64,000 bases of DNA from Tenggerimyces flavus (GTDB lineage Bacteria; Actinomycetota; Actinomycetes; Propionibacteriales; Actinopolymorphaceae): contig NZ_JAFBCM010000001.1 in the NCBI RefSeq assembly GCF_016907715.1, forward strand, positions 6,572,001 through 6,636,000, in the 5' to 3' direction. Under the pieces are notes generated by a model, which was not told the origin of the DNA, did not search any database, and saw nothing but the letters and a program-made list of their open reading frames with translations. A program made the position numbers and the translations under genes. Shown here piece by piece: positions 3,184 through 41,579 of this stretch. Each line of letters starts with the position of its first letter. Positions within the stretch are counted from its first letter, which is position 1.

Positions 3184-4389
3184 CTAGTGGCGAGCACCGC
3201 TGAGCTCCTCACCGGCGAATTCGTAGTACCACAACGACCGATAGTTCGCCCAGGTCTGCGGACGCAGCGGCAAGTCGCGGAACATCTGCTCCAGTTGCCG
3301 GCGCGCTTGGAGATAGAACTCCAGCTGGTCCGATCCGCGCGTACCGAAGCTTTCCATGAACTTGTTGTGCGCCTGGAAGACCTGAAAATCCGGAAACTTC
3401 GTAACGACCTGACTGAGCTCGAAGAGGGCTTCCCGCACGACGTCGATCGGCTCCAGCCCCACAATATAGGTGAACGTGGCCTGGAACCCGCGATCCCGCG
3501 CCGCCACGAGGATGCGCGGCACTTCCTCTGGCCGGAGGCTTGCCTTCGAGTGCTTGAGAATGGCGCTCCGGTTCGTGAAGCATTCCAGAGTCATCACGAG
3601 AAAGAACGGCGCAACCTCCTCCGCGATCCGATCCATACCCGCCTCGGTCCTGATGACCGAGCTCAGCATGCCCAGCTGAGCTTTGCCACCATGCTTGGCG
3701 AGCGCCTCCCGTACCATCGCCAGATGATCGATGGCGGGCTCCTCCCAGTGGAAGCAGCCCGTCACGACGTTGACCTCGTCGAGCCCGCTCATGTCGGACC
3801 AGCTCTGCTCGGCCTCGATGATGCTGAAGCACTGATCGAGGTCGTCGAGAACCGCGAGCCGCGGGTCGGACGCACCCTCCAGCGTGTTGGGACAGAACAC
3901 ACAACCGGTGCACTGGCTGCGAGCGTTGGAGTTCAGCACCAACACGCGGCAGTGGTTGCGGAAGTATCCCCAGAGAGCGTCGTCGTGCTCTACCTCTTCG
4001 AGGTCGGCGATCAGTTGGTTGTCGAAGAACAGCTGGTCGCCTCTTACCAAGAACGGTGAATTTGCCCTTGCCAACGGCAGCCCCTGGCGCAGTGGCTCCT
4101 CAGGGCGGCTTCTTAGGTGCATCAGCATACGCGCCCGCGGGAACCCCGGGTCCGATCGTGCCCCGAACACGTTCAGCGCGATCATAAGTACGTCGTCGAA
4201 ACAAACGCCATACCGCTTGGCCAGCTCGTGCGCGTCGTACCAGTTCAACACCGACACCGCCAAGCCTCCCTCCGAATCAGCTCTCGCTACTAGGATGAAA
4301 AACGCCGTCCGATGGTCTCGGTGTTTCCTTGTCACCTGGCCGATCGGGCCGTTGTACGCCCCGTCAAGCTGCCGTAGCATTTCGCGCAT
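3184..4389 (-). CDS. radical SAM-like protein with CX2CX2C motif
   Basis: The 401-residue protein has a central cysteine motif CTGCVFCPN (C160, C163, C166 from this start). The CVFCPN half looks like a radical SAM iron-sulfur site, but the first spacing is two residues rather than the canonical three. The following segments (VVTGCFHWEE, then a glycine-rich VGLEP turn) fit a radical SAM TIM barrel. The reaction is unknown; a role in modifying the cluster product is inferred from position. This ATG overlaps the ATG of the divergent nucleotidyltransferase, so the shared promoter must lie inside one of the genes or a start is wrong. Alternatives are 4380, and 4482 which would overlap the divergent coding region. 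Confidence 0.7.
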   Translation of the reverse strand: MREMLRQLDGAYNGPIGQVTRKHRDHRTAFFILVARADSEGGLAVSVLNWYDAHELAKRYGVCFDDVLMIALNVFGARSDPGFPRARMLMHLRSRPEEPLRQGLPLARANSPFLVRGDQLFFDNQLIADLEEVEHDDALWGYFRNHCRVLVLNSNARSQCTGCVFCPNTLEGASDPRLAVLDDLDQCFSIIEAEQSWSDMSGLDEVNVVTGCFHWEEPAIDHLAMVREALAKHGGKAQLGMLSSVIRTEAGMDRIAEEVAPFFLVMTLECFTNRSAILKHSKASLRPEEVPRILVAARDRGFQATFTYIVGLEPIDVVREALFELSQVVTKFPDFQVFQAHNKFMESFGTRGSDQLEFYLQARRQLEQMFRDLPLRPQTWANYRSLWYYEFAGEELSGARH

Positions 4390-5329
4390 GTCACTCAAGG
4401 CCCTGATTAGTACGGCCGGCTTCGGCAGTCGACTCTTCCCGGTCGGGATCGCGATCAGCAAGGGAATGCTACCCGTGTGCAACCGCCCGATCGTGCACTA
4501 CTTGGTCACCGAGCTGATCGATGCCGGCATTCGTGAGATCGCCTTCGTAGCAAGGCCACGCGACGACCAGATCCGCCGATACTTCGAAGAAGACGAGCAC
4601 ACCAAACGCTACTTCCAGGAGGCCGGCTGGTCGGCCAAGTATACCCCGTTAGCCGATTGGTACGACCTGATCAACCAGGTCACGTTCACGTGGATCGAGC
4701 AGCCACCCGGCGCGTACGGAACCGCGATCCCCGCCCTGCTCGCACGCCGCTGGATCGGAGACTCCGACTGGATCTACTTGTCGGCCGACGACCTCGTCCT
4801 CCGGCAGGACGACGGCAGTGACCTGCGGGACCTTATCCGTGCCAGGGAGTTCGTCGGATGTCCCGCCGCACTTCAGGTCGTCGAGGTTTCGTGCGAGCGA
4901 CTCCGGCACTGCGGCGTCGTCGTACCGCGACGAGATCCTGATGGCCACGAATACGTCGCCGATGCCATCGAGAAGCCGAAGGTCGAGGACGCCGCCTCCA
5001 ACCTCGCGTCCATCTCTCGCTTCGTTCTCCCACCCGATGTCTTCGAGGTATTGGAAGCGCTTGGCCCAAATCCCGCCTCGGGCGAGTACGTCGCGCTCGA
5101 TGCGATCGCTCAGTACGCCAAGGTCAAACCTGTGCTGATCCACCGGGCCGCCGGAGAGCACTACGACTGTGGCCGAGTCGACGGTTGGATACGGGCTAAC
5201 CTGACCGTAGGCCGACGCGACGGCCTGCTCCAGCCCACCGAAGCTGAGCTGAACGACGTCGCGCGTCACGACGCGAGTATGCGCAGGCGCTCCGAGCTCT
5301 CCGCCTCGATGCGACGCCGCAGGCGATAG
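4388..5329 (+). CDS. GalU-like sugar-1-phosphate nucleotidyltransferase
   Basis: The 313-residue protein begins with the nucleotidyltransferase signature: TAGFGSRLFP, then K-G-M-L-P, matching GalU/RmlA-type enzymes that make an NDP-sugar from sugar-1-phosphate and NTP. Further family marks are the YGTAIPALLA segment and the SADDLVL metal-binding loop. GalU homologues are UDP-glucose enzymes, but the neighbouring heptose genes make a heptose-1-phosphate substrate plausible; base and sugar specificity are not readable. It is divergent from the radical SAM gene with overlapping start codons. Its last 64 bases overlap the 3' end of the sigma-factor gene on the other strand. Confidence 0.8.
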   Translation: MSLKALISTAGFGSRLFPVGIAISKGMLPVCNRPIVHYLVTELIDAGIREIAFVARPRDDQIRRYFEEDEHTKRYFQEAGWSAKYTPLADWYDLINQVTFTWIEQPPGAYGTAIPALLARRWIGDSDWIYLSADDLVLRQDDGSDLRDLIRAREFVGCPAALQVVEVSCERLRHCGVVVPRRDPDGHEYVADAIEKPKVEDAASNLASISRFVLPPDVFEVLEALGPNPASGEYVALDAIAQYAKVKPVLIHRAAGEHYDCGRVDGWIRANLTVGRRDGLLQPTEAELNDVARHDASMRRRSELSASMRRRRR

Positions 5330-5944: not shown

Positions 5945-7060
5945 TCATTCGAAGGCGGCGATCGAAGACCTAAGCTCCGCCACGATGCGTTCCTGCTGCT
6001 CCGCACTCATGCCAGGAAAGAGCGGCAGGGAAAGCACCTCGCCGGCGAGCCGCTCGCTGACCGGGTACTGGCCCGCCCGGCTCATGCTTTCGTTGAACGG
6101 TTTCTGCAAGTGAATGGGAATCGGGTAGTGCACGCCTGCTTGGACACCACGATTACGCAGGCGCGCGAGCACATCGTCTCGGTGCCGTACCCGTACGACG
6201 TAGAGGTGCCAGACAGGAACGTTCCCCGGCAATACATACGGCCTGCCTACGCCGTCGATTTCGAGCAGCTCGTCGTAGCGGGCGGCAAGCCTGCGGCGTT
6301 CATCGTTCCAACAATCGAGCCGGCGAAGCTTCGCTCGCAGGACAACCGCCTGGATCTCGTCCAATCGCGAGTTCGTCCCTATCACGTCATGGACGTACTT
6401 CTCCCGCGATCCATGGTTGCGCAGGCTGCGGACCTGGCTCGCGATCTCCGCGGAGCTCGTGAGCACAGCTCCGCCGTCGCCGAGCGCACCCAGGTTCTTG
6501 GACACGTGGAAGCTCGTCGCGGCAACCTGGCCAACGGATCCGGCGCGCATGCCGAACCGGCTGGCGCCTTGCGCCTGCGCGGCGTCCTCGACCATCAGCA
6601 CGTCGCGTTCCCGCAGATATGGTCGTAGCTCGTCCAGCGGCCAGGTCTGTCCGTAGAGATGCACAGGCAGGATGGCCCGTGCACCCTGCTCGACGCGGGA
6701 GGCGACCTGCTTTGGGTCGGCCAGCGCAGTCTGCTCGTCGACATCGACGAACACCGGCGTGGCACCGGCACGAACAACAGCGGAAGCGCTGGCGAAGAAG
6801 GAGTTCGCGGGTACGACCACGCGATCGCCGACAGCGACGCCAACCGCGCGCAACGCGAACTCCAACGCATCGGATCCGCTGTTCACCGTCACGCAGTAAC
6901 GCACGCCGCAGTAGCAGGCGAACTCCTCCTCGAACGCCGCGACCTCATCACCCAAGATAAATCTGCCGCTCTTGAGCACGCGATCCCAACCCTGCCTGAC
7001 CTCGTCCTCGATCTCCGCCAGCTGAGGCCCGGGATCCATCAGCGGAATTTCTTCCGTCAT
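5945..7060 (-). CDS. DegT/DnrJ/StrS-family sugar aminotransferase
   Basis: This 371-residue protein is a full-length fold-type I PLP aminotransferase of the DegT/DnrJ/EryC1/StrS family. It normally converts an NDP-keto-sugar to an NDP-amino-sugar with glutamate or glutamine as donor. The pyridoxal lysine is K188 in SFHVSKNLGALGDGG, and D159 in EDAAQAQG should bind the pyridine nitrogen. N-terminal SGSDAL and HLYG motifs are intact. It is preceded by the carrier-thioesterase gene with a 15-base gap, so both are probably co-transcribed. Together with the N-formyltransferase at 30911 it suggests an N-formylated amino sugar. Confidence 0.92.
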   Translation of the reverse strand: MTEEIPLMDPGPQLAEIEDEVRQGWDRVLKSGRFILGDEVAAFEEEFACYCGVRYCVTVNSGSDALEFALRAVGVAVGDRVVVPANSFFASASAVVRAGATPVFVDVDEQTALADPKQVASRVEQGARAILPVHLYGQTWPLDELRPYLRERDVLMVEDAAQAQGASRFGMRAGSVGQVAATSFHVSKNLGALGDGGAVLTSSAEIASQVRSLRNHGSREKYVHDVIGTNSRLDEIQAVVLRAKLRRLDCWNDERRRLAARYDELLEIDGVGRPYVLPGNVPVWHLYVVRVRHRDDVLARLRNRGVQAGVHYPIPIHLQKPFNESMSRAGQYPVSERLAGEVLSLPLFPGMSAEQQERIVAELRSSIAAFE

Positions 7061-7075
7061 CTGTCATCCACCGCG

Positions 7076-8155
7076 CTAGTGGTGCATGAACTGCCCCGAC
7101 GGCGCCCGGAGCGCGTGTGCTATGTGTCCACTGGCTTGCCGCGCTAGCTCGGTCACGGCCGGACGCATAAACATCTCGAAGTGATCACCGGGCACTCCTT
7201 GCACGTGCAGCTTACCGAGGACGCGTTCCCGCCAGCCGGCCGCGTCATTCCGGCCGGCCGCCTCACCTGGAACGAACAGGACGACCGATCCGGCATAGGG
7301 TTTCGGTTCGTACCGCGCGAAGGCACGCTCCGACGCCTCGTGTATGCGCAAGTGCCTGCGAACGAAGTCGACCGATACCGCGGGCGGTGCGATCTTGAGT
7401 TGCTTCCATCCGTCCAAGATGTACTCAAGTTGATCGTTCTGGTCGAGCGCGGCGAACTCCTTGAGTGTGACGGGGACGTCCTCCTCTGCGAAGAAGCCGT
7501 AGAGAAGTTCTGTCGGGGACGACGGCGTTCGCTTGCGTCTCGGCGGCGCGGCGTCGAACAGGATCACGAGCGGCACCTGAACGTCCCGTTCGGCCAGGGC
7601 GGTCGCCATCTCGAGCGCGATCAGTCCACCAGAGCAGTAACCACCCAGCAGGTACGTCCCACCCGGCGCGACCGCTACCAGATCGTCGGCATACCTGACC
7701 GCCAGCGACTGGATATCGTCGATAGGAAGCGAGTCGTCGTAGAGACCCGGCGGCTGGAACGCGTAAACCGCCCGTTCCGGCGCGAGCAGCTGCACGAAGT
7801 CGAATCCCCAGGTGATGTCGCCGGAGATGTCGTGCACGAGGAAGAGCGGCGGCGTCATTGCCGCCGAGGCGCGCAATGGCAAGGCAGTCGACCCCGACGG
7901 GAGCTTCGTCTCCTCACGGAGTACCGCCGCGAATTCCTCGATGGTCGGATAGTGAAAGTAGAGATAGAGCGGGAGCGTACGGCTGAAGGTCTCGCTGACG
8001 GCCTGGGTGACCTGGAGCAGCAGGATCGAGTTGCCGCCGATCAGGAAGAAGTTGTCTTCGACAGACACGTCGCGCATGCCGAGCACGTCCCGCCAGATGA
8101 TCGAAAGTGCCACCTCGAACGGGTCCCGCGGTCCAACGAACATGGTGTCCTCCAA
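7076..8155 (-). CDS. carrier protein-thioesterase didomain
   Basis: The 359-residue protein fuses an N-terminal acyl/peptidyl carrier domain (about residues 11-82) to an alpha/beta-hydrolase thioesterase (about 100-350). The phosphopantetheine serine is S43 in GGNSILLL. The thioesterase carries S175 in GYCSGG, D201 in LFDAAP and H325 in GDHFEMF, a plausible catalytic triad. Such a pair normally ends a nonribosomal peptide synthetase, but here it stands alone: no condensation, adenylation or ketosynthase domain is nearby. It may receive an acyl group from a trans-acting loader and release or transfer it to the sugar scaffold. It lies 6 bases after the HAD phosphatase gene and 15 bases before the DegT gene. 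Confidence 0.9.
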   Translation of the reverse strand: MEDTMFVGPRDPFEVALSIIWRDVLGMRDVSVEDNFFLIGGNSILLLQVTQAVSETFSRTLPLYLYFHYPTIEEFAAVLREETKLPSGSTALPLRASAAMTPPLFLVHDISGDITWGFDFVQLLAPERAVYAFQPPGLYDDSLPIDDIQSLAVRYADDLVAVAPGGTYLLGGYCSGGLIALEMATALAERDVQVPLVILFDAAPPRRKRTPSSPTELLYGFFAEEDVPVTLKEFAALDQNDQLEYILDGWKQLKIAPPAVSVDFVRRHLRIHEASERAFARYEPKPYAGSVVLFVPGEAAGRNDAAGWRERVLGKLHVQGVPGDHFEMFMRPAVTELARQASGHIAHALRAPSGQFMHH

Positions 8156-8161
8156 TGGTGT

Positions 8162-8842
8162 TCAGACCGGGCCATCGACCTGGCGCGACGTCCAGAGCCC
8201 GACCGCGAACCGCGCGGCTGCCTCAAGGTCGGCGAATACCGGATGATCCTCGGACACCGAGGCGAGTTGCTCGTGACCTCGGCCGGTCAGCACCAGACCG
8301 GATCGCAGGTCAGCGGCCCGACCGGCCATCAAGTCGGTCAGCGCGTCACCGACGAGAAAGCAGTCCGCCGGCTTCAACGCGAGCGCGGAAAGCGCCTCCT
8401 CGATCATTCCGGATGCGGGCTTCCGGCACGGACACCTGTCCCGCGGTGCGTGTGGGCAAAGGAAGCTGGCCGCCACATCGACGCCACGGCGCATCAGCAT
8501 CCCGAGCAGTCGGGTGTGCAGCCGCATGGCGCCGACCTCGCTCAACAATCCGTGCCCGACAGCGGCCTGGTTCGACACGATGACGATCAGCGCGCCGAAC
8601 GCCCTGGCGAGTCGCAAGGCACCAACCGCGCCCGGAAGGAGCCGCAGGTGACGCGGGCGCAAGATGTAGCCCCGCCGGTTCTCTACGATCACGCCATCGC
8701 GGTCGCAGACCAGTGCGTGCTTCGCGCCGCTACGGCTCGCGGTTTCGGATATCGACGCAAGCGGTCCAGGTCGGTCGACTGGCGCATGCCAGGTCGTACG
8801 ACCCACGCGATGGCTGGCCTGAGAGGCACGGTGATCTCGCAT
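8162..8842 (-). CDS. GmhB-like HAD phosphatase (heptose bisphosphate)
   Basis: The protein matches the HAD-III subgroup of D-glycero-D-manno-heptose-1,7-bisphosphate phosphatases. The catalytic loop reads CDRDGVIVEN, followed by a conserved SNQAAVGHGL segment. The zinc-binding loop with Cys and His (CPHAPRDRCPCRKP) is typical of GmhB, and VGDALTDLMAG is the last HAD motif. It should remove the 7-phosphate of heptose-1,7-bisphosphate. Partners are the isomerase at 24822 and the kinase at 25511. About 45 residues precede the catalytic loop, unusually long, so the true start may lie further in. The leader faces the divergent UvrA-like gene. Confidence 0.82.
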   Translation of the reverse strand: MRDHRASQASHRVGRTTWHAPVDRPGPLASISETASRSGAKHALVCDRDGVIVENRRGYILRPRHLRLLPGAVGALRLARAFGALIVIVSNQAAVGHGLLSEVGAMRLHTRLLGMLMRRGVDVAASFLCPHAPRDRCPCRKPASGMIEEALSALALKPADCFLVGDALTDLMAGRAADLRSGLVLTGRGHEQLASVSEDHPVFADLEAAARFAVGLWTSRQVDGPV

Positions 8843-8889
8843 CACCCAGGAGATGCTTCCAAACGCCTTCCGGTCGCATCTCTTCTACG

Positions 8890-11800
8890 ATGAGAAGCAT
8901 GTCGGACCTAGCGATAGTGATCCGCGGCGCTGCGGAGAACACGCTCCGTGACGTCGATGTCTCCTTCGGTAGGGGCGTGACGGCCGTCGTCGGAGTGTCG
9001 GGCTCGGGCAAGTCCTCACTGGTTTTCGACACGCTCTTCCACGAGGCCCGGCGACGCTTTCTAGAGACGTTGTCGCTCAGCTCACCGTGGTCCCATCTGC
9101 GTCCCGCGCTGGTACGGGCGATCGACGGGCTCGGACCGGCTGTGGCCGTCGCGCAGAACGTCGTCAACCACAACCCCAACTCCACCGTCGCCACCGCGAC
9201 GGGCATCCACCCGTTCCTCCGGGTGCTGTACGCATCGTTCGCGGTTCGTACCTGTCCGCGCTGTGGTGCGGAGCCAGGGTTCGTCGCCAGCGGCCGCGAG
9301 CAGCAGCTCAGCTGGCTGCGGCACTTCGCGGGAACCAGCGACAACGGCTTCGAGGTCGTCGTTCCACTGGTCAGGAAGGCCGAAGGCAGCCATCAGCGCC
9401 TGCTCGAGCTCCTCGTCGAGGAGTTCGGCGCCGAGGCGGTCGAGGTCGACGGAAACGTCTGGCGGCGTCAGCGATCGAAGGCCCTGCGCGCGGACGTACC
9501 GCACGACATCATGCTCAACCTGGCGTCCGTCACCCCGGCTACCGGTGCCGACGAGCTCCGCAGGATCCTCGATACCGGGCGAGAGCTCGGCAGCTCTCAG
9601 CTCGTGCTCAGACGCCCGAACGGTGAGGCGCACCAGCTCTCCCGGATCCCTTTGTGCCCGGCGTGCGGCGACCGGCTTCCGACCCTCCGCCCCACGGATT
9701 TCCGCACCGGGGACGTCCGCGGCTTCCGGCTCGGAGGCCTGACTCTCCAGGAGTACCTGGAGTTGTCCGTCTCGGAGGCGATGGCCGCCCTCTCCGGCTT
9801 CGAGGTGCCATCGGCGGCGGCCCGCCCCCTGGAAGACGTACGGGTCCGGCTCGCCGCGCTGGCGGCCGTGGAGCTCGGCTACCTGCCACTGGATCGGACG
9901 ACCCCCACCCTGTCGCGCGGTGAGGCCCAGCGGCTTCGGCTGGCAGTGCTCCTGGCAACCCCGGTGGAGGACCTGCTGCACGTCCTCGACGAGCCAACGA
10001 TCGGCCTGTCCGCGGAGCAGGTGGAGCGCCTGCTCCGGCAGTTCGGCAGGCTCCGCGGTCCTGTGGTGATGGTTGAGCACGACCGATGGGCGGTGGCACA
10101 AGCCGATCAGGTGGTAGAGCTCGGACCAGGTGGCGGTAGGAACGGCGGCGCCGTCACGTTCCGCGGAAGTCCTGCGGAGCTGTGGCAGTCGGACACGGTC
10201 ACCGGTCAGTGGTTCTCCGGGCGAGCCACCGCGCCGGCTCCACCTCGGCCGGCCTTCGGGGACGACCTCGGACTGCTGACCGTCCGCGGAGCCAGTGCCA
10301 ACAACCTGCGTGGCTTCGACTGTGCGATCCCCGTCGGTCGACTGACCGTCGTCACCGGGCCCTCAGGGGCGGGTAAGTCCACGTTCGCCCGCAACGTCGT
10401 GGTCGGTTCGCTCGAGGCCGGCGAGGCACGCGGATGCACCCAGCTGGAGGGACCCGGACTCCGGGCGATCACGGTCGACCAGAGCCCGATCGGTCGCAAC
10501 CCCCGTTCCAATCCGGCAACGTACACCGGGCTGGCGAGCCATGTCCGCAACCGCTTCGCGAAGTCCACCGGGCTGCCGGCGTCGGCGTTCTCGTTCAACC
10601 GATCCGACGGCGCCTGTCCCACCTGCTCAGGCATGGGTGCGGTCGAGCTCGAGCTGCCACACCTGCCCTCCGAATGGTTGACCTGTGAGACCTGCGACGG
10701 TCAGCGGTTCGGTCGTGATGTGCTCGAAGCTCGGATACCGCTGGCCGACGGCAAGCACTACGCGATCGCCGAGCTGTACGACAGCACGATCGAACGCGCC
10801 TTCGAGCTCCTGTCCGACGACAAGAAGTCCGCGCAGATCCTGACGCATCTCATCGACATCGGCCTGGGATATCTCACCCTCGGCCAGCCGTCACCGACGC
10901 TCTCCGGCGGTGAGGCCCAACGGGTCAAGCTCACCAAATGGCTGACCCGCGTGCGCGCCCGCGACCTGATCCTGCTCGACGAGCCGACGACGGGGTTGCA
11001 TCCGGCCGACCTGTCCCGCCTCACCGACATCCTTCACCGGTTGGTCCACCGCGGCTGCACGGTCCTGGTGGTCGAGCACCATCCGGACATCGTCGAGGTC
11101 GCGGACTGGGTGATTCGCCTTGGACCAGGTGGCGGACCCGAAGGTGGCCGGCTGCTCGGCGCCGGCACGGCGGGGTCCGTCCGGCAGCCGGTCAAACAGC
11201 CACGGCCTCGCGAACGACCCCGGCGACGGCCTCGCTCCTCGCCGGCGATCAGTGTCGTGGACGCCACGGCCAACAACCTGGACCATGTGACGGTCACGTT
11301 CCCGAAGAACGCGATCACTGCGATCGTGGGCCGCTCGGGTTCCGGCAAGTCGTCCTTGCTCACCGATGTGCTCGCAGCGGAAGCGAGCAGGCGGCTGCTG
11401 GAGTGCCTTTCGATGTACGAAAGGCAGTCGGTGAAGGAAGGGCCGGAGGCCGCGGTGGCCTCTGTCGAGGGACTCGGCCCAACGGTGACGATCGAGCCGG
11501 ATCGCAACCTCTGGAACCCACGCCGTACCGTCGGCACCGCAACCGACGTCAGCTTCCACGTCGGCGTGTTGCTCGCGTATGCCGGTACGGGCGGCGACGG
11601 GACGTTCCTGCCGAACCACTTCTCGCCGCAGTCCTACCGCGCCGCCTGCTTGACCTGTGGCGGAATGGGAACGGTTCCAGAGCCTCGTCCCGAGCGACTC
11701 ATCGTCAATCCGGCGGCGCCACTGTGCAAGGGCGCGATGTACTCGCCGGGATTCTTCCCGCACACGTACATGTCCAAGCCGGAGAACGGCGGCTACTGGA

Positions 11801-13557
11801 TGATCCAGGGCCTGGGTCAGCGCTACGGGTTCGACCCGTTCGAGACTCCTTGGGAGCAGATGACCGAATCCGCCCGGCAGGCCTTCCTGTTCGGCGAGCC
11901 CGGCGCGAAGGGATCGATACCCGACAAGTCCCGCTGGGTCGGGTTCTTCCCGGTCGTCGACGGCTGGGACCAAGGCGGTCTCTATCTCGACCATCTGATC
12001 TGCCCGGCCTGCGAAGGTGGCCGGCTGCGGCCGGAGTTCCTCGCCGTACGGTTGGCTGGAGCCAACCGCCACGACCTCCACCGGTGGCCGCTGGTCCGGG
12101 TCGCGGACGTGCTGGACGCCGTGCGGATCCCGGGCAACACGCCCAGCTGGGTTGCGACGTCCAGGACGGTTGTCCTTCGCCGCTTGCGTTTTCTGGCCGG
12201 CGTCGGACTGGGCTACCTCCACCTCGACAGAGGGTCGGCGACGCTCTCGGCCGGTGAGGCCCAACGCATCAAGCTCGCCTCGCTGCTCGGTGCCGACCTG
12301 TCCGGAATGACTGTGCTCCTCGACGAGCCCACTCGCGGCCTGCATCCGCGAGAGGTGGACGGCCTGGCCGACTCGCTGTGCCGGCTTCGGGACGCCGGCA
12401 ACACGATCGTTCTGGTCGACCACGATCCCGTGTTGGTCTCCCGGGCCGACCAGACGGTGGTGCTGGGGCCGGCCGCCGGTCGCGACGGAGGCCGCGTGTT
12501 GCAGCCTGCCTCGGAGAACGCGCGGGCTCTCGTACCCACGCGCCGGCCCACCGAGCGAACGTCGCCGCGCCGTACGCCAACCGGATGGATGACCGTGCGG
12601 AGCCCGAGCGAGAACAACCTTACGGGTGCCGACATCGGCATCGCCTTGGGCGTGTTCGCCGGGATCTGTGGTGTGTCCGGCTCCGGGAAATCCACGCTCG
12701 GTATCGACATCATCGCCAGAGCTCTGGCACCTTCGGTGCTGACTACGTCGGTGGCAATGGAACGCGTGCAGCCGGGAGCACATGACGGCATCGTCGGGGC
12801 TCCAACGAGAACGGTCTACTCGGATCAGAGCAGATCCGGCATCCAGTCACCTGGGCAGCACCTCGGAGTCTTGGCGGCACTGCGTCGTGCGTACGCGGCG
12901 ACGGTGGACGCGGCAGAGCTGGAGCTGACGGAGAAAGACCTCACGCCACGGTGCGACGCCTGCCATGGTCGCGGATTCATCAAGCAGGACATGGGATTCC
13001 TCCCTTCTATTACCAGTCCGTGCGACGTGTGCGAAGCCACGGGCTACCACTACGAAGCCCGTCGGCTCGTGGTTCGCGGGCACAGCTTGCCCGCGCTCGA
13101 GTCGAGGACCCTGGCCGAGGTGCTCGAACTGTGGCTCGACGTCACGGGCGTCGCCCGACCGCTCGAGGTCGCCTGCTCGCTGGGGTTGGGTTACCTACGG
13201 CTCGGCCAGCCGAGCCACAGCTTGTCGGGCGGCGAGGCGCAACGGCTGAAGCTCACCCGCGAGCTCCGCAAGAAGAACAGCAAACCCACCCTGTTCATTC
13301 TCGACGAGCCGACTGTAGGGCTCCATCCTCGGGACGTCGCCAGCCTGCGGACGGCGCTGGAAGAGCTCGTCGACACCGGTCATAGTGTTCTCGTCATCGA
13401 GCACGAGCCGAGCCTGCTCGCGGCATGCGACTGGCTCCTGGAGCTCGGACCGGGCGCAGGACCGGAAGGCGGGCAGGTGGTCGCCACCGGAACACCCGAG
13501 CAGCTCGCGAAGGCGCACACCCCGACCGCTCCCTACCTCGCCGAGGTGCTGCCGTGA
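8890..13557 (+). CDS. double-length UvrA-like protein with four ABC domains
   Basis: The 1555-residue protein is two UvrA-like units in one chain, each about 775 residues. Walker A motifs lie near residues 35 (GVSGSGKSS), 490 (GPSGAGKST), 814 (GRSGSGKSS) and 1261 (GVSGSGKST). The four ABC signatures are LSRGEAQR (about 341), LSGGEAQR (671), LSAGEAQR (1119) and LSGGEAQR (1444), each followed by a Walker B with DEPT. Several CXXC zinc-type pairs are present (CPRC, CPAC, CPTC/CETC, CDAC/CDVC). Normal UvrA has two ABC domains in about 950 residues and works as a dimer, so this looks like a fused dimer, with no clear UvrB-binding insert. UvrA-like proteins in antibiotic clusters (DrrC type) give self-resistance to DNA-binding drugs. 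ATG at 8899 is an alternative start. Confidence 0.92.
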   Translation: MRSMSDLAIVIRGAAENTLRDVDVSFGRGVTAVVGVSGSGKSSLVFDTLFHEARRRFLETLSLSSPWSHLRPALVRAIDGLGPAVAVAQNVVNHNPNSTVATATGIHPFLRVLYASFAVRTCPRCGAEPGFVASGREQQLSWLRHFAGTSDNGFEVVVPLVRKAEGSHQRLLELLVEEFGAEAVEVDGNVWRRQRSKALRADVPHDIMLNLASVTPATGADELRRILDTGRELGSSQLVLRRPNGEAHQLSRIPLCPACGDRLPTLRPTDFRTGDVRGFRLGGLTLQEYLELSVSEAMAALSGFEVPSAAARPLEDVRVRLAALAAVELGYLPLDRTTPTLSRGEAQRLRLAVLLATPVEDLLHVLDEPTIGLSAEQVERLLRQFGRLRGPVVMVEHDRWAVAQADQVVELGPGGGRNGGAVTFRGSPAELWQSDTVTGQWFSGRATAPAPPRPAFGDDLGLLTVRGASANNLRGFDCAIPVGRLTVVTGPSGAGKSTFARNVVVGSLEAGEARGCTQLEGPGLRAITVDQSPIGRNPRSNPATYTGLASHVRNRFAKSTGLPASAFSFNRSDGACPTCSGMGAVELELPHLPSEWLTCETCDGQRFGRDVLEARIPLADGKHYAIAELYDSTIERAFELLSDDKKSAQILTHLIDIGLGYLTLGQPSPTLSGGEAQRVKLTKWLTRVRARDLILLDEPTTGLHPADLSRLTDILHRLVHRGCTVLVVEHHPDIVEVADWVIRLGPGGGPEGGRLLGAGTAGSVRQPVKQPRPRERPRRRPRSSPAISVVDATANNLDHVTVTFPKNAITAIVGRSGSGKSSLLTDVLAAEASRRLLECLSMYERQSVKEGPEAAVASVEGLGPTVTIEPDRNLWNPRRTVGTATDVSFHVGVLLAYAGTGGDGTFLPNHFSPQSYRAACLTCGGMGTVPEPRPERLIVNPAAPLCKGAMYSPGFFPHTYMSKPENGGYWMIQGLGQRYGFDPFETPWEQMTESARQAFLFGEPGAKGSIPDKSRWVGFFPVVDGWDQGGLYLDHLICPACEGGRLRPEFLAVRLAGANRHDLHRWPLVRVADVLDAVRIPGNTPSWVATSRTVVLRRLRFLAGVGLGYLHLDRGSATLSAGEAQRIKLASLLGADLSGMTVLLDEPTRGLHPREVDGLADSLCRLRDAGNTIVLVDHDPVLVSRADQTVVLGPAAGRDGGRVLQPASENARALVPTRRPTERTSPRRTPTGWMTVRSPSENNLTGADIGIALGVFAGICGVSGSGKSTLGIDIIARALAPSVLTTSVAMERVQPGAHDGIVGAPTRTVYSDQSRSGIQSPGQHLGVLAALRRAYAATVDAAELELTEKDLTPRCDACHGRGFIKQDMGFLPSITSPCDVCEATGYHYEARRLVVRGHSLPALESRTLAEVLELWLDVTGVARPLEVACSLGLGYLRLGQPSHSLSGGEAQRLKLTRELRKKNSKPTLFILDEPTVGLHPRDVASLRTALEELVDTGHSVLVIEHEPSLLAACDWLLELGPGAGPEGGQVVATGTPEQLAKAHTPTAPYLAEVLP

Positions 13558-14528
13558 CCGATCCCCTTGCCCTACTGTTGTGTGAGCGCTCAGCCGCCCT
13601 GAGATATCGCGTGCTGGCCGAGCTCATGGACGTTCCGCCAGACGATCCCGAGCTGCACGACCTTGGCCGGCAACGAGAGGTAGAGGCGGCCGAGCTGGAC
13701 GCCGGCTCCGCAACGGGCGTCAAGGAGCTCAGCTGGGCCCTTTGCCGATACTCCTACCAGGGCGTCGACCGATCCCATTGGGAGGTCGCCGCGATCGCCG
13801 AGCGGGTTTTCGACAGCCAGGCGGCAGATGGCTCGTTCCCGCTGAACCTGTTCAGGCGTGGACGGCGGGAAAGCGTCTACTCAATGGCCCCGCTTCAGGT
13901 TGCCTTGCCGCTACGAGGCCTCGCGGCCGCCGGCTACGCGACCGACGCGCGTGCGGAGCGGGCGTACGACTGGCTGCTCAGCCATCAACTCGACGACGGT
14001 GCCTGGCCGATGGGTATGGCGCACGGCCAGCCAGGCTTCATCGCCGGCTATCGCAAGCTGCCGGGCTCCAAGGGCTGCCGTGCAACGACCGAAGGCGTCC
14101 TGGCCTGCCTCGTGCTACACCCCGACCGGTCGCGTGCACCGTACACGCGCGCCGCGCTGGACCGCCTCCTGCAGCGAGAGACCAGGGACGAATGGGCATT
14201 GGGCACCGAGGTGGCGCGGCTCACGGGACGAGAACCGGCAGCCGGCTTCGTCACGTTCTATGCGCGGTTCGACCTCGCCTTCCTGCTCGACCTCGCCTCG
14301 CGTGCGGGCGCATCGCTCGATGACGCGAGGGTCGCGGATCTGGTCGAGTTCCTGATGGACCGCCGCGGCCAGTTCGGGCTCTGGGAGCATCCGGCATATC
14401 CGGAGCTGAGCCGCTGGCTCACGTTCGACATCTTGTCGAGCCTGCGCCGCCTGCGATCCGGGGCCTGGTCCGGCCTCGCCCCCCGCGTGCCGTTCCGTGC
14501 CTACCCGACCCACCACCGACGGTTCTAG
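13554..14528 (+). CDS. terpene-cyclase-like alpha/alpha-toroid protein
   Basis: The start is a GTG that overlaps the UvrA stop by four bases (GTGA), so translation is probably coupled. The 324-residue product carries repeats of the prenyltransferase/squalene-oxidase type: SQAADGSFPLNLF near residue 90, LSHQLDDGAWPMGM near 145, and RGQFGLWEHP near 265. These resemble QW-type segments of alpha/alpha toroids. There is no DXDD or DDXXD metal/protonation motif, so cyclase activity is doubtful. Such toroids also occur as noncatalytic binding domains. Coupling to the UvrA-like gene suggests a shared role in resistance or DNA handling; this is inference. Confidence 0.7.
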   Translation: MTDPLALLLCERSAALRYRVLAELMDVPPDDPELHDLGRQREVEAAELDAGSATGVKELSWALCRYSYQGVDRSHWEVAAIAERVFDSQAADGSFPLNLFRRGRRESVYSMAPLQVALPLRGLAAAGYATDARAERAYDWLLSHQLDDGAWPMGMAHGQPGFIAGYRKLPGSKGCRATTEGVLACLVLHPDRSRAPYTRAALDRLLQRETRDEWALGTEVARLTGREPAAGFVTFYARFDLAFLLDLASRAGASLDDARVADLVEFLMDRRGQFGLWEHPAYPELSRWLTFDILSSLRRLRSGAWSGLAPRVPFRAYPTHHRRF

Positions 14529-21966: not shown

Positions 21967-22704
21967 GGTTTCGCAAGGGTCGCTCGTACCTCCCACCGCT
22001 TGGAGGATCCTGTCTCCGAGATCGGGCCGTTCAGTGTCCTCGAGGTCGACGCCGGTCCTGCGTACAGGCATCGTCGCCGATTCAGCCGTGAGCAGGTAGC
22101 TGAGCCAGGCGCGCTGCCGCGCCAGGAGGTCCTCGATGATGCGTTCCTGGATCGGGTTCTGCCTTGGCCTCGAGGTCGTTTGCTGACGTGCGACCTGTCG
22201 CAGGCGGTCAACCATCGTCACCAGCATCGCTTGCGGATCCGACGTGAAGTCGACATCCGGCAGCTCCTCCAGCGCGGCACCGAGACCGTGCAGCAACCGT
22301 TCGAACTCCATCCGCAAGGTCAACCGGGACGGCCGAGCCGGCGCGACCCGAATCGTCGCCGGATGACAGCCGTACGTTGGCAGCTTAGCGGCCAGTCCGT
22401 CCACGAGCACCGCGCCGGCACAGTCGCTGACCAACGCAACCGGCGGCGAGTCGAGTCGCACGATCTGTTCTACGTAACCGGCCACCAGGGTTTCCAGCTT
22501 CGGCACCTCTTCGGTGTCACAGCTCGCGAGGTCACCGACGACGTCCAGCCGATAGAGAGCATGCCCGCGGCGGGTTCGCTCGACCGCCTCCACCAGCACG
22601 TTCCCCAGCGGGCGCGAGGGTGGTGGCCGGAAGAAGTCGACCACGAGAATAGGCTCCTTGCTTTGCGCGGTGAGGCGAACGATGGCCGTCGGCCATGCTG
22701 TCAT
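21955..22704 (-). CDS. unknown protein coupled to the FkbH enzyme
   Basis: This 249-residue protein starts at an ATG overlapping the FkbH stop (ATGA), so the two are translated together. I do not recognise the family. The N-terminal half looks alpha/beta with a strand ending VVDFFRPPPSRPLG and a later ALVSDCAGAVLVDGLAAKL segment. The C-terminal half is mostly helical and charged. No GXSXG motif is present, though SDCAG sits where an alpha/beta-hydrolase nucleophile might. It may act on the acyl group carried by the fused carrier; that rests only on gene order. Confidence 0.7.
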   Translation of the reverse strand: MTAWPTAIVRLTAQSKEPILVVDFFRPPPSRPLGNVLVEAVERTRRGHALYRLDVVGDLASCDTEEVPKLETLVAGYVEQIVRLDSPPVALVSDCAGAVLVDGLAAKLPTYGCHPATIRVAPARPSRLTLRMEFERLLHGLGAALEELPDVDFTSDPQAMLVTMVDRLRQVARQQTTSRPRQNPIQERIIEDLLARQRAWLSYLLTAESATMPVRRTGVDLEDTERPDLGDRILQAVGGTSDPCETSAR

Positions 22705-24782
22705 GGCACGGTTCCTCCGATCCTCGCCTGTCGCAGGTCGTGCACTGCCTGCACGAGCCGGTCGAAACGGACGCCGTCCTCGAGGACCTCGTCGAGTGAG
22801 AGCTGTACCTCGAAGGCGTCGTGCAGGTCTGCGAGGAACCAGACCAGCTCGAGAGAAGTGCCACCGGTGCCGAAGAACTCGTCTTGCGGCGTGACCGGCG
22901 GCCTTCCCAACCGACGCGCCCACAGGGCCGCGACAGTTGAGCTGACCTGTTCTCCAGCAAGGTCGCCGGCCGGAGTTCCGGATTCCTCGACGGCCGCCAG
23001 GACGCGATGCGCGTCGTTCAACTCGTTGGCGATGTGTTCCACGAGCCGCCACGGCATGCGCTCCGCTGCGGGCGAGGATTCGGAGGTGGGTACCGCGTCG
23101 CTGCTCGCGGAGTGCTCACCTGCGTGACGATCCGGATCGTACGCCGCGCCGGCCGCCAGCTCGGACGAGAGAACCAAGGCGGGACGGTCGTCGTGAAGCC
23201 GGGCCTCCTCGACGCCCAGACCGTCGAGGAATTCCAACGCGGGTTGGTTGCGCCCGGTCCGGACGCAGTCGAAAGTGATCCGCTTCAGGCCGCTCGCCCG
23301 GGCGGCCTGGCCGAGCCGCCGCACCATTTGGTGTTCGACGCCGCGTCCGAGCACCCGGCAACTCAATAGGAACGAACGGATCCGGAGGACTTCTTCGTCA
23401 TGGTCGTAGACCATTAGTCCCACGACGCCGTACGTGTCGAAGTGATCCTCCACTTCGACGATCAGGGCACGGGTACGTCGAGGCAGGTTCGCGAACTCCG
23501 CTGCCGACCAGCGTCGGCCGGTCAGGTTGAACTGGTTGGTTCGCGCGGTGAGTTGCGCCATCCGGGCGTGGTGCCGCTGCGTCGCTGCCGAGATCGTCAC
23601 TGTCGTGCCGAGTTGAGCCAAGTAGTCCGAAAGGGACGGTGCGGTTCGCCGGAGTCGCCTGCGTTCACGTTCGACTCGGTAGTGCCGGGTACGGTGGTGG
23701 TCGGCATCCGTCACGTTCCGGGTGTCGAGCGGCCAGCAGTGCCGGACAAACCGCGCGGCGCGCTCGGCGGAGTTGGGCAGACGCAGTGCGAGGACCTCCG
23801 GACAGTTCACTCGCACTTCAGCGCATTCCACTGGACTGTCGTCGAGGAAGACGAACGAGTCGAGCGCGAGGTTCAGCTCGGCTGCCAGGCTCCTGAGATT
23901 TTCTGACTTCGGCCGCCAGTTCACCCTCGCCGCTGCCACGTGCTCTTCGCGAACCACCATGTCCGGGTGCTTCGCGAGGACCTTCATGACGTCGGACTCG
24001 TCGTTCTTGCTACACAGGCAGAGCAGCCGTCCGTTCTGAACCTGTGCCACCAGGAACTCCTGCAGCGCCCGCCGGTGTGAACCTATCCGGATCCCCGGTA
24101 CGCCGTCCTCGGCGACGTAGCCGTCCCACAAGGTGGCGTCACAGTCCACGACGAGCACCTTCGGCCGCGGAATCTCGGCCGCGAGCGTCCTTCGTACCAC
24201 ATGCGTTCCGGCGGCTGCGTAGAAGAGGGCGGTGTAAGGAATCTGCGCAAGCCGGTCTGTGAACGCCGAATAGTAGTCGCCGGTGCGCGCCAGACCGCTC
24301 TCCGCCAGCAGGCTAGCGGACTCGCTGACGTTAACGCTGTCCACGGAGCGCAACCTGGCGACGAGATCGTGCTCGACATTGGCCACGATCCGGGCCGCAC
24401 TCCGGTCCTGTTGGACGCCGGGCGACGGCGGGCACGTAACGACGGTGAAGGATCGGCCGGAACTCGCCGCCGCGACGACACTGGCTTCGAACAGGTCGGC
24501 GCCCGACTCGATCGCCCTTCGCCATCCGCTGTGCGTGATTCGCCGAGTCGCGGCGAGATCCTCGACCCTCAGCAGGACGGCATTGGTTCCATCCCGATGC
24601 TCCAGGAGCGGGCCGTCCGAGTCAGTGAGGTCGGCGAGCAACCGCTGCGGTGTTCCGAGGCGCACGTCGTGAGGAATGCCGAGAAGTCTTGCCCAGAAGC
24701 TGAAAACCGGTCCGAGTGGATCGGTTGGAAAGGAGGCCAGCACTGCCAGTTTGAGCCCCTTCCCGAGACCGGTCCCACGCAC
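22701..24782 (-). CDS. FkbH-type HAD enzyme fused to a carrier domain
   Basis: The 693-residue protein has an N-terminal domain (about 1-200), then the FkbH HAD core with catalytic VVDCDATLWDG (D213 and D215) and FLDDSPVE. A GNAT-like part follows at about 385-545, and an acyl-carrier domain at about 605-690 with the phosphopantetheine serine near S643 in GTGGTSLEL. FkbH enzymes load a glyceryl unit from 1,3-bisphosphoglycerate onto a carrier protein; here the carrier is built in. The three-carbon unit could be passed to the sugar scaffold or to the lone carrier-thioesterase at 7076. The start is a GTG with AAGGAGGG upstream. It lies 39 bases after the GmhA-like gene. Confidence 0.88.
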   Translation of the reverse strand: MRGTGLGKGLKLAVLASFPTDPLGPVFSFWARLLGIPHDVRLGTPQRLLADLTDSDGPLLEHRDGTNAVLLRVEDLAATRRITHSGWRRAIESGADLFEASVVAAASSGRSFTVVTCPPSPGVQQDRSAARIVANVEHDLVARLRSVDSVNVSESASLLAESGLARTGDYYSAFTDRLAQIPYTALFYAAAGTHVVRRTLAAEIPRPKVLVVDCDATLWDGYVAEDGVPGIRIGSHRRALQEFLVAQVQNGRLLCLCSKNDESDVMKVLAKHPDMVVREEHVAAARVNWRPKSENLRSLAAELNLALDSFVFLDDSPVECAEVRVNCPEVLALRLPNSAERAARFVRHCWPLDTRNVTDADHHRTRHYRVERERRRLRRTAPSLSDYLAQLGTTVTISAATQRHHARMAQLTARTNQFNLTGRRWSAAEFANLPRRTRALIVEVEDHFDTYGVVGLMVYDHDEEVLRIRSFLLSCRVLGRGVEHQMVRRLGQAARASGLKRITFDCVRTGRNQPALEFLDGLGVEEARLHDDRPALVLSSELAAGAAYDPDRHAGEHSASSDAVPTSESSPAAERMPWRLVEHIANELNDAHRVLAAVEESGTPAGDLAGEQVSSTVAALWARRLGRPPVTPQDEFFGTGGTSLELVWFLADLHDAFEVQLSLDEVLEDGVRFDRLVQAVHDLRQARIGGTVP

Positions 24783-25442: not shown

Positions 25443-25510
25443 GACAGCTCCGGTTGTTCGATCTCACCGAACTCTTCATACCTCTCACTGATGCATCGGA
25501 AGGCCACCTC

Positions 25511-26524
25511 GTGTCGCGATCTCCTTACGGACAAGGTGCAATACGGGTCGTCGCGCCGCTGAAGGCCGGGCTCGCGGGCGGCGGCAGCGATCTCCCGTCC
25601 TACTACGAGGCGAGCCCCGGCCAGTGCCTGAACCTCGCGCTGGACATCGCCGTCACCGTGACGTACACATCCGCCTCCGCGCCCGGCCAGGCCTCGTTCA
25701 CTGTTCCCGAGCCGGCCGATGTCAGGTTGGGCACGACGATGGTCGACGCCGTAGGACTCACCCGAACAGGTGATGTCCACGTCCGGCTCGCCGCCGGCCC
25801 CGGCCGTGGGCTCGGCTGTTCCAGCGCGCTCGCCGTCGCACTGGTCATGGTTCAACGGGCGCTCTCCGGCCTGCCCGCGACTCCGGGCGATGTGGCCGAG
25901 GCGGCCTGGCGGCTGGAGGCATGCGAACTGGCTCAGCCGGTCGGCAAGCAGGACCACTACGCTTCAGCGTTCGGCGGTGTGAACGAGTTCAGCTTCCGGC
26001 CAGAGGGAGTTGGCGTGCATCCCTTACGCCTGTCTCCGCCGGGTGCCGAGCTGTTGGAGAACAGTCTGCTGGTCGCGAGCGTCGGCGAGCCCCGCACAGC
26101 ACGGGACACCCTGAGCCGTCAAAACGACAGCTGCCGGAACGGCGTCGACTCGGTCCGGGCCGCCATCGCTGAGCGAGTCCGCCTTGTGCCGGAGTTCCGT
26201 ACGGCGCTGGCCGCCGGTGACCACGCCAGACTCGCGCGTCTGATGCGCTACGACTGGTCGGTCAAGGCAGGCCTCGACCCAGGCATGTACGACGTGACTG
26301 TCGAAGCGGCCTTGGCTCAGGCTGTCGACGTGGGAGCCCTGGCCGCCCGGCTGCTCGGCGCCGGGCGCAGCGGCTATCTCCTGCTCCTGGCCCCACCCGG
26401 CCGGCGCGACGCCATCGTGCGAGTGCTTGGCGCGCATTTCCGTGATGTCCGGCCGGTCCGTCCATCCCGGCGTGGCGTGTGGCTCGGCCGTGCCGGAGAG
26501 GCGATCCGAAAGGTGCCAGTATGA
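25511..26524 (+). CDS. GHMP kinase, HddA-like heptose-7-phosphate kinase
   Basis: About 337 residues of the GHMP kinase fold. The N-terminus has PLKAGLAGGGSDLPSYYE, as in D-glycero-D-manno-heptose-7-phosphate kinases (HddA). The ATP loop GPGRGLGCSSALAVAL and GKQDHYASAFGG are the other family marks. It should phosphorylate heptose-7-phosphate at C1. A GTG at 25511 with GGAAGG seven bases upstream is chosen; an ATG at 25454 would add 19 residues lacking family character. The stop overlaps the epimerase start (ATGA). Confidence 0.85.
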   Translation: MSRSPYGQGAIRVVAPLKAGLAGGGSDLPSYYEASPGQCLNLALDIAVTVTYTSASAPGQASFTVPEPADVRLGTTMVDAVGLTRTGDVHVRLAAGPGRGLGCSSALAVALVMVQRALSGLPATPGDVAEAAWRLEACELAQPVGKQDHYASAFGGVNEFSFRPEGVGVHPLRLSPPGAELLENSLLVASVGEPRTARDTLSRQNDSCRNGVDSVRAAIAERVRLVPEFRTALAAGDHARLARLMRYDWSVKAGLDPGMYDVTVEAALAQAVDVGALAARLLGAGRSGYLLLLAPPGRRDAIVRVLGAHFRDVRPVRPSRRGVWLGRAGEAIRKVPV

Positions 26525-39770: not shown

Positions 39771-40403
39771 CTACTGATGAGGTCCCTGCTCACTGGTGCC
39801 GACCACACCGTTCCCGAAACGGTAGCCAAACAACTCGACCTCTTCGGCATAGAACTCGGCGACCAGATCCACCAGCTCGGGGGTGAACTGATCGAGGTAA
39901 TTGGACCCGTCGCCGATGACAAGCCGGCTGAGCGGACGATCAGCCAACCCCAGAGCATCTCTCACGTGTGCGAAGTCAGCCTCCAGCCGCTCGTACCGGC
40001 CAACGAAGTCAACCAGGATCTCGCCGTCCTGGTTCGTGATCCATTTCAACTGTGGCGCGAGACTCTCGTAGCCAAGATACCGCAGGAGAAACGTACGGAA
40101 GGTCATCTCGCTACTGTCCACTGCTAGCCAGACGCGGTGAGCAGCATCTCGCATGACGTTGCGGTACCAAGAGTACGCACGGGCCCATGGATTTCGGACG
40201 AACGCGAACTTGTAATAGGAGGAGAAGATCTTCGCCGGCAGCGTCCGCTGGAACTCCAGAATGGCGCGGTGGTCCTGCTGTCCTCGCATGCTGTTCACGT
40301 TGTAGAAGCCACATGCGTGCTCGATGGCCGTACCACCCGTCTTTGGAATGTGTACGAAGATACAGCGAAGTTCATGTGAAACGTTGGGTATCATCGCATC
40401 CAC
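39771..40403 (-). CDS. carbohydrate sulfotransferase-like protein
   Basis: The 210-residue protein has the PAPS 5'-phosphosulfate loop IPKTGGTAIE (K21) and the 3'-phosphate motif FAFVRNPWARAYSWY (R69, S77). This order and spacing match the Sulfotransfer_2 family acting on carbohydrates or lipids. It suggests that the product or a surface glycan is sulfated. It lies 12 bases after the GT4 gene and 31 before the regulator. An ATG at 40394 is an alternative start. Confidence 0.8.
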   Translation of the reverse strand: MDAMIPNVSHELRCIFVHIPKTGGTAIEHACGFYNVNSMRGQQDHRAILEFQRTLPAKIFSSYYKFAFVRNPWARAYSWYRNVMRDAAHRVWLAVDSSEMTFRTFLLRYLGYESLAPQLKWITNQDGEILVDFVGRYERLEADFAHVRDALGLADRPLSRLVIGDGSNYLDQFTPELVDLVAEFYAEEVELFGYRFGNGVVGTSEQGPHQ

Positions 40404-41540: not shown

Positions 41541-41579
41541 GGGCCCTCCTTGTGGCAGTTCGTGGATCAAGATCCGGCA

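Follow-up and report, generated by a model that had tools for sequence, protein, structure and literature searches.

A window of 64,000 nucleotides from Tenggerimyces flavus (contig NZ_JAFBCM010000001.1, positions 6,572,001 to 6,636,000 of the forward strand) carries a gene for a 1555-residue UvrA-type protein with four ATP-binding cassettes (ABC), called here the double UvrA. Its accessory domains are complementary: the UvrB-binding-like domain is found in half 1 and the insertion domain in half 2, in all 25 aligned sequences of the family. The gene is directly followed by one encoding a squalene-cyclase-like protein (the partner), and the same gene pair recurs in other genomes. We hold this architecture and the two-gene module with high confidence. 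The features concerned, all on the plus strand and in window coordinates, are:

8890 to 13557: double UvrA, 1555 residues, four ABC cassettes (translation, NCBIfam TIGR00630, motifs)
8890 to 11220: half 1, residues 1-777, with ABC-I, zinc module 1 and UvrB-binding-like domain, without insertion domain, and ABC-II
11221 to 13554: half 2, residues 778-1555, with ABC-I, zinc module 2 and insertion domain, without UvrB-binding domain, and ABC-II
8992 to 9018: Walker A 1, GVSGSGKSS (motif scan)
9253 to 9666: zinc module 1, pairs C122/C125 and C256/C259 flanking the UvrB-binding-like domain (hhalign, column filling)
9910 to 9933: signature 1, LSRGE, non-canonical, in 19 of 19 public loci (motif scan, alignment)
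10357 to 10383: Walker A 2, GPSGAGKST (motif scan)
10900 to 10923: signature 2, LSGGE (motif scan)
11167 to 11247: basic linker between the halves, rich in P and R (..RRRPRSS) (family alignment)
11329 to 11355: Walker A 3, GRSGSGKSS (motif scan)
11647 to 12012: zinc module 2, pairs C920/C923 and C1038/C1041 flanking the insertion (DNA-binding) domain (PF17755, hhalign)
12244 to 12267: signature 3, LSAGE, non-canonical, in 19 of 19 public loci (motif scan, alignment)
12670 to 12696: Walker A 4, GVSGSGKST (motif scan)
13222 to 13245: signature 4, LSGGE (motif scan)
13554 to 14528: partner, 324 residues, squalene-cyclase-like, with QW-type motifs and without DXDD(T/S)

Complementary domain split between the halves

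Domain columns were counted using the canonical UvrA of the host itself as ruler (119 UvrB-domain and 121 insertion-domain columns), in an alignment of 25 double proteins of which 22 are distinct, the other three being second views of the same genomes. Half 1 of the window protein fills 111 of the 119 UvrB-domain columns and 15 of the 121 insertion-domain columns, while half 2 fills 1 and 100, respectively. The same holds throughout the alignment, where first halves fill 85-111 UvrB-domain and 15-33 insertion-domain columns and second halves 0-9 and 87-107. The halves, described in an earlier first-pass annotation made from the sequence alone as differing in detail, thus differ by whole domains. 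The cysteines follow the same division: zinc module 1 is present in half 1 only and module 2 in half 2 only, and module 3 is found in both (C576/C599 and C1355/C1378). In half 2 of most relatives a shrunken CxxC pair persists at the former UvrB-domain site, gone from the window copy, and a metagenome-assembled genome (MAG) labelled Pseudomonadales has a close CxxC pair in half 1 at the former insertion-domain site. As judged by their sequence, these leftover pairs look like remains of deletion.

Both assignments were examined by profile comparison. With hhalign, the half-1 region of the family aligned to residues 120-235 of the host UvrA (probability 95.4, E 2e-8) and the half-2 region to UvrA residues 267-419 (probability 98.3, E 1.2e-14). 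The Pfam family UvrA_DNA-bind (PF17755) was recognized in all 20 second halves scanned at E<=0.1; that of the window gave E 1.3e-4 and 22.6 bits, slightly short of the gathering score (23.2). No UvrB-domain Pfam family (PF17760) was listed for the double UvrA at E 0.01 or, at E 0.1, for its half 1. The two accessory domains are also the most diverged parts of the window copy: its UvrB-like domain is 33% identical to those of five relatives, which share 72% among themselves, and its insertion domain 36% against 61%, compared to 53-67% against 79-90% for the remaining regions.

An intact frame with four ATP sites

A single open frame runs from the ATG at 8890 through the stop at 13557 and translates into 1555 residues; an in-frame GTG at 8713 provides an alternative start that would add 59 residues. 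The first-pass annotation had proposed a protein of this length with four ABC domains, and the frame bears this out. Walker A motifs are located at residues 35, 490, 814 and 1261, where they had been placed, and Walker B motifs at residues 366, 696, 1144 and 1471. Signatures occur at residues 341 (LSRGE), 671 (LSGGE), 1119 (LSAGE) and 1445 (LSGGE), the first three as annotated and the fourth one residue beyond the 1444 given earlier. The NCBIfam uvrA model TIGR00630 matched the whole chain in four stretches with 1051.8 bits (cut-off 729.8), which places the protein in the UvrA superfamily and, together with the four cassettes, supports the earlier proposal of a covalently fused UvrA pair; in the genome search, each single stretch scored under the cut-off. 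Identity between the halves amounts to 33% over 804 aligned columns, and they therefore do not represent a recent tandem copy. The G+C content at third codon positions is even over the whole frame (0.76-0.86).

That the gene results from joining two uvrA genes in sequencing or assembly, or is in fact a pair of genes whose stop and start were overlooked, a danger which the first-pass annotation had itself raised, can be dismissed, since 19 public loci and a second copy in the host genome encode the same four-Walker A protein in open frames, with the domain split the same throughout, and since the linker contains no start codon (the in-frame starts between residues 741 and 815 are four GTGs, at 741, 790, 800 and 813, all outside the basic linker).

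According to an excerpt of PMC6486640, the distal site of UvrA is composed of ATP-binding domain II and signature domain I. If the halves are UvrA-like in build, the distal site of each would then have its own fixed deviation, signature I being LSRGE in half 1 and LSAGE in half 2 at 19 of 19 public loci. In one locus (L027), the fourth signature falls outside the strict pattern. Walker residues are retained at all four sites of the double UvrA, so that a loss of ATPase activity is not indicated.

Predicted structure models, which cover each half separately, reached a mean predicted local distance difference test score (pLDDT) of 81.7 for half 1 (md8b25ed44edd) and 81.4 for half 2 (me7396abbb61b). 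UvrA structures were the top matches for each. The best Foldseek match of half 1 was chain A of 3uwx, the UvrA of a UvrA-UvrB complex (E 1.2e-59, template-modelling (TM) score 0.64 by query length, root mean square deviation (rmsd) 10.3), and that of half 2 was UvrA 9gxw (E 5.9e-64, TM 0.83). With VIA-align, half 1 was superposed on UvrA 6n9l, a construct without residues 117-399 (Z 35.4, rmsd 3.6, 585 aligned), and on Ecm16 7sh1 (Z 31.8, rmsd 5.0, 571 aligned).

A squalene-cyclase-like partner

The GTG start of the partner at 13554 overlaps the TGA stop of the double UvrA (13555-13557). In all 24 other loci that cover both the double UvrA gene and its flank, three of which are second views of the same genomes, the partner comes immediately after the double UvrA, and a possible start overlapping the UvrA stop is present in each. 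Another 24 short loci (L051-L074), obtained as first-half or junction matches, end before the place of the partner, gave no match and were not counted. In the order to which the host belongs, the partner and the double UvrA occur in the identical 20 of 293 genomes, the host being the only one with two full copies; one genome (G003) has an additional fragment. The corresponding Fisher value of 2e-31 ignores kinship, and with 19 of the 20 genomes confined to two genus codes apart from the host, the number of independent events is small; some of the same genomes also went into the partner profile. In the phylum sample, all three genomes with a double UvrA also hold the partner. The sole exception to co-occurrence that we met is a weak partner match in one genome of this sample (G382; E 2.6e-13, 21% identity), on a 5.9-kb contig without UvrA match.

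Members of the partner family measure about 300-347 residues and carry QxDGSW-type motifs. Their profile matched squalene-hopene cyclase in PDB (2sqc, E 1.3e-13), and PF13243 touched all 11 members at E<=1, the lowest E being 9.8e-9. On the window partner, PF13243 scored 15.9 bits, under its gathering score of 26.1, and no Pfam family exceeded its threshold for this protein; the best of the 11 members may pass. The acid motif of squalene-hopene cyclase is DXDD followed by T or S. This motif was found in none of the 11 partners, and a bare DXDD in three, near residue 27 (two) or 272 (one). Going by these sequences, the partner would be a non-catalytic, toroid-type subunit that binds a ligand or a protein.

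PADLOC returned no match for three partner proteins, and an identity as a defence system was rejected on this ground. For the double UvrA it listed 56 families, the best 25 of which (mad3 and mad8 on top) look by name like ABC- or OLD-type ATPases.

Separately, a phosphotransferase-like gene, recognized by eye, lies upstream of the double UvrA at L029:8657-9982 and in the same place in L028, L032, L035, L040 and L041, with 40-86% identity to the L029 copy; it had no PDB match at E 0.001. We considered it as a third member of the module and rejected it, as it accompanies only 6 of 19 public loci and is absent beside the window copy and the second copy of the host.

Spread and history of the family

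Scanning public genome contigs with a profile of the family alignment gave 24 loci, five of which (L046-L050) were dropped as short generic ABC matches. The remaining 19 encode double UvrAs, each having four Walker A motifs and an open frame of 1554-1733 residues: 12 from Kribbella, 3 from Actinopolymorpha, 1 from Microlunatus and MAGs labelled Actinomycetes, Anaerolineae and Pseudomonadales, labels which may be wrong. Altogether, 21 distinct loci with a double UvrA are known to us besides the window. The same contigs scanned with the window double UvrA alone yielded no confirmed relative. Using the first half as query at E<=1e-50, matches were obtained in 3 of 396 sampled Actinomycetota and in the 20 of 293 genomes of the order. 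A query across the junction, with E set to 1e-40, proved too strict, as it missed the second copy of the host, and its count of 1 in 198 was not used. Two loci (L053 and L054) that end early at locus borders were excluded from trees and counts.

The halves were placed separately in a tree. Twelve first halves formed one clade and 12 second halves another (SH-aLRT support 100 each), with broadly equal order of members inside both, and half 2 stood apart from the UvrA2-like proteins of the host; the single-unit references were limited to three UvrAs, all of the host. This is a quick tree with long branches, based on 12 of the 22 distinct double proteins, which shows the grouping of halves by position and can neither date nor root the fusion. 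Since the halves group by position, one old fusion is likely and is the simplest explanation. As an old family with a linked partner, the fusion did not arise in the cluster described here.

The window copy stands apart from its relatives, with no more than 54% identity to any other tree row for each half and 49-52% over 437 residues to the others in the order sample. No close orthologue was found in the genome samples scanned. One internal TAG interrupts the double UvrA of G483, one of the 20 order genomes, and another the partner match of G486, which may point to decay of some module copies.

An origin of the module from phages or plasmids was also considered and rejected. Viral contigs scanned with the double UvrA and with the partner alignment contained no relative, and the partner had no match among plasmids and phages. 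The double UvrA matched 709 plasmid records, all under 60% identity, and the best 25 of these correspond to annotated uvrA genes with matched spans of about 2.5 kb, that is, to single units.

Host genome and cluster setting

The host genome is a single contig of 8.52 Mb. Outside the window it holds a second copy of the module (L009:6672-12229, minus strand), with a double UvrA of 1549 and a partner of 303 residues. The two copies are 47% identical, and the second is 69-78% identical to the double UvrAs of Actinopolymorpha, Kribbella steppae and Microlunatus. Besides the two double UvrAs, the host has a canonical uvrA, two UvrA2-like genes (L010:126-2411, 761 residues, and L011:109-2514, 801 residues), thus five UvrA-type genes in all, and uvrB. 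A weak second UvrB match covers UvrB positions 156-293 in a frame of 1250 residues, presumably Mfd.

Around the window copy, with gene starts as mechanically called, the following neighbours were identified:

within 3884 to 5329: nucleotidyltransferase
5945 to 7060, minus strand: DegT/DnrJ sugar aminotransferase
7076 to 8155, minus strand: carrier protein fused to a thioesterase
8162 to 8845, minus strand: HAD phosphatase resembling GmhB (heptose bisphosphate 7-phosphatase), divergently oriented to the double UvrA gene (family match under the curated cut-off)
22701 to 24782, minus strand: FkbH domain with carrier domain
25454 to 26524, plus strand: GHMP kinase resembling HddA (heptose 7-phosphate kinase), scoring 81.6 bits, under the cut-off of 600

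The start codons of the GmhB-like gene and the double UvrA are separated by 44 bases as called, and the minus-strand side also holds a sigma-factor-like protein. On the plus strand, the next genes encode two proteins without family, a flavin amine oxidase, a radical SAM/SPASM protein, a glycosyltransferase and a MocA-type oxidoreductase. Further on are found the FkbH-carrier gene, the HddA-like kinase, an epimerase or dehydratase, a methyltransferase, a minus-strand formyltransferase and two genes for ABC exporters. The kinase, phosphatase and nucleotidyltransferase suggest a putative route to a nucleoside diphosphate (NDP)-heptose, and the neighbour genes as a whole point to an amino sugar that would derive from it.

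The stretch 3884-35427 thus apparently combines an NDP-heptose route with aminotransferase, formyltransferase, radical SAM, FkbH-carrier and exporter genes. The heptose-type genes may resemble those of the septacidin, spicamycin or hygromycin B pathways. A literature search gave nothing decisive on the cluster product. No non-ribosomal peptide synthetase or polyketide synthase module was present among the window open reading frames scanned, in line with the earlier statement that the cluster lacks an assembly line, a statement to be qualified by the carrier-thioesterase and FkbH-carrier proteins. Pieces of an IS481-type transposase (helix-turn-helix and integrase core, two open reading frames) at 42988-44012 are possibly the right border of the cluster. 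A sulfotransferase-family protein is encoded at 39771-40403 (minus strand), adjoining a glycosyltransferase at 40416-41570.

Possible role of the module

Our preferred explanation, held tentatively and at somewhat less than even confidence, is that the double UvrA acts as a single-chain UvrA pseudo-dimer together with its partner, and that the window pair is a diverged extra copy of a standing module, recruited to the heptose-type cluster, most likely to protect the host from the cluster product. Half 1 and half 2 would fold as UvrA protomers and pair via the basic linker into a four-site, one-groove assembly, made lopsided by one UvrB-binding-like domain on half 1 and one DNA-reading insertion domain on half 2. 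ATP-driven opening and closing would allow such an assembly to scan DNA and to act at a distorted or drug-loaded site, and the toroid-type partner would probably be required for this task, binding a ligand or a protein instead of acting as a cyclase. We hold a more specific form of this explanation still more cautiously: a single-chain asymmetric UvrA, with one UvrB-type contact and one lesion-reading domain, would work with an obligate toroid partner, which may capture a displaced ligand or replace UvrB as downstream effector, and the window copy would be the resistance device of the cluster.

The UvrA-like proteins DrrC and Ecm16 protect producers without UvrB, as stated in excerpts of PMC10192343 and PMC10413001, and the former excerpt adds that the native insertion domain is required for drug-stimulated ATPase activity. 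The first-pass annotation had proposed protection of the producer from a DNA-acting product. Its protective part finds support in the location among biosynthetic genes, in the extra diverged copy and in the resistance given by DrrC and Ecm16, and the self-protection role of the window module, taken by itself, remains about as tentative as the explanation above. For a DNA-acting product the neighbours give no direct sign; they point to an NDP-heptose-derived amino sugar.

Several points weigh against the self-protecting pseudo-dimer. Nothing in the cluster demands DNA as target. Nineteen of the 20 order genomes hold the module as a single full copy, so that its ordinary role would be general. 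The part of PMC10192343 that tabulates cluster-borne UvrA-like proteins gives eight, of 756-874 residues, and Ecm16 and DrrC, as described in the excerpts cited above, lack the UvrB-binding domain, unlike the double UvrA. The half-1 model compared to its 39 UvrA-type rows gave TM scores of 0.53-0.71 by query length with an often large rmsd, which leaves its domain placing unsure. Finally, the strong divergence of the two accessory domains fits a new target or effector, and equally fits relaxed constraint.

The double UvrA could alternatively serve as a repair loader, half 1 recruiting exactly one UvrB (or Mfd) while half 2 reads the lesion, so that UvrB is loaded on one strand for excision repair; the window copy would then repair damage made by the cluster product. 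The UvrB-binding-like domain kept in half 1 of all 25 aligned proteins, its hhalign match to UvrA, the uvrB gene of the host and the weak second UvrB match, presumably Mfd, are all consistent with this. In E. coli UvrA, according to the portion of PMC3025350 consulted, removal of the UvrB-binding domain abolishes repair and removal of the insertion domain affects damage recognition. Nevertheless, we consider the repair loader unlikely given the low identity of the window UvrB-like domain to relatives that resemble each other closely, the lack of a listed UvrB-domain Pfam family, and the fact that neither the double UvrA nor the partner matched a nuclease family.

A general genome-maintenance or defence module, spread horizontally and located in the cluster by chance or serving the whole cell, is slightly less probable again. 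Its patchy distribution over Actinomycetota, the order and the MAGs labelled Anaerolineae and Pseudomonadales would agree with such a role; among 11 loci compared, the double UvrA and the partner are the widely shared genes, and the phosphotransferase-like gene accompanies only a minority of the public loci. Against it, same-strand genes follow the window pair, the divergent cluster gene starts 44 bases away as called, the window pair is a second, diverged copy beside the standing one, and PADLOC matched none of three partners and, among its best 25 of 56 families for the UvrA, gave names that look ABC- or OLD-type. That the partner is a working terpenoid-type cyclase, making the gene pair biosynthetic rather than protective, is very improbable: the profile match to squalene-hopene cyclase and the PF13243 matches speak for it, whereas the window partner scores under the gathering threshold, DXDD(T/S) is missing from all 11 members and the same partner stands behind double UvrAs of distant taxa.

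Comparison with known systems and implications

The double UvrA shares with canonical (class I) UvrA the ABC-I/ABC-II plan, the zinc modules and the UvrB-binding-like and insertion domains, all present somewhere in the chain. It differs in uniting two protomers, with four ABC cassettes instead of two, and in dividing between the halves the accessory domains that canonical UvrA holds in the same unit; signature I, LSGGE in the host's own UvrA, is LSRGE and LSAGE here. Half 2 alone follows the plan of class II UvrAs (UvrA2, DrrC, Ecm16), having kept the insertion domain and lost the UvrB-binding domain and zinc module 1, although in the tree it belongs to a clade separate from the UvrA2-like proteins of the host. 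The cluster setting and presumed self-protection recall DrrC and Ecm16, as far as the excerpt of PMC10192343 describes them. In contrast to class II, the double UvrA keeps a UvrB-binding-like domain and zinc module 1 in half 1, and a partner gene follows.

Two UvrA units per chain are also found in the model PRK00635/NF001885 (1809 positions), which we take to be chlamydial. Residues 283-899 of the double UvrA align to its positions 418-1054 across the junction, with 683.1 bits, well under the cut-off of 3054. Residue 283 falling at position 418, the first half of PRK00635 would be long enough to hold both accessory domains, and 755 model positions lie beyond the match, compared to 656 residues in the double UvrA; a complementary split is thus not indicated there. 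A double UvrA as such is therefore not new, PRK00635 being a precedent for the fusion and not for the split. The partner resembles squalene-hopene cyclase in its QW-type motifs and profile match to 2sqc, and differs by measuring about half of the 631-residue enzyme and by lacking DXDD(T/S) in 11 of 11 members. As judged by titles and the starts of abstracts in the open PMC literature, neither this family, nor the complementary split, nor a linked, cyclase-like partner of UvrA-type proteins has been described.

The number of UvrB molecules per UvrA pair (UvrA2B2 or UvrA2B1), and a change from two to one at the lesion, are stated to be unsettled in a review (PMC7835731). In the double UvrA, which occurs naturally and has a single UvrB-type domain and a single insertion domain in fixed order, each of the two could be altered alone, which is impossible in a homodimer. 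Its close association with a cyclase-like protein suggests that UvrA-type proteins can have such a partner, and the module could mark clusters that carry their own resistance.

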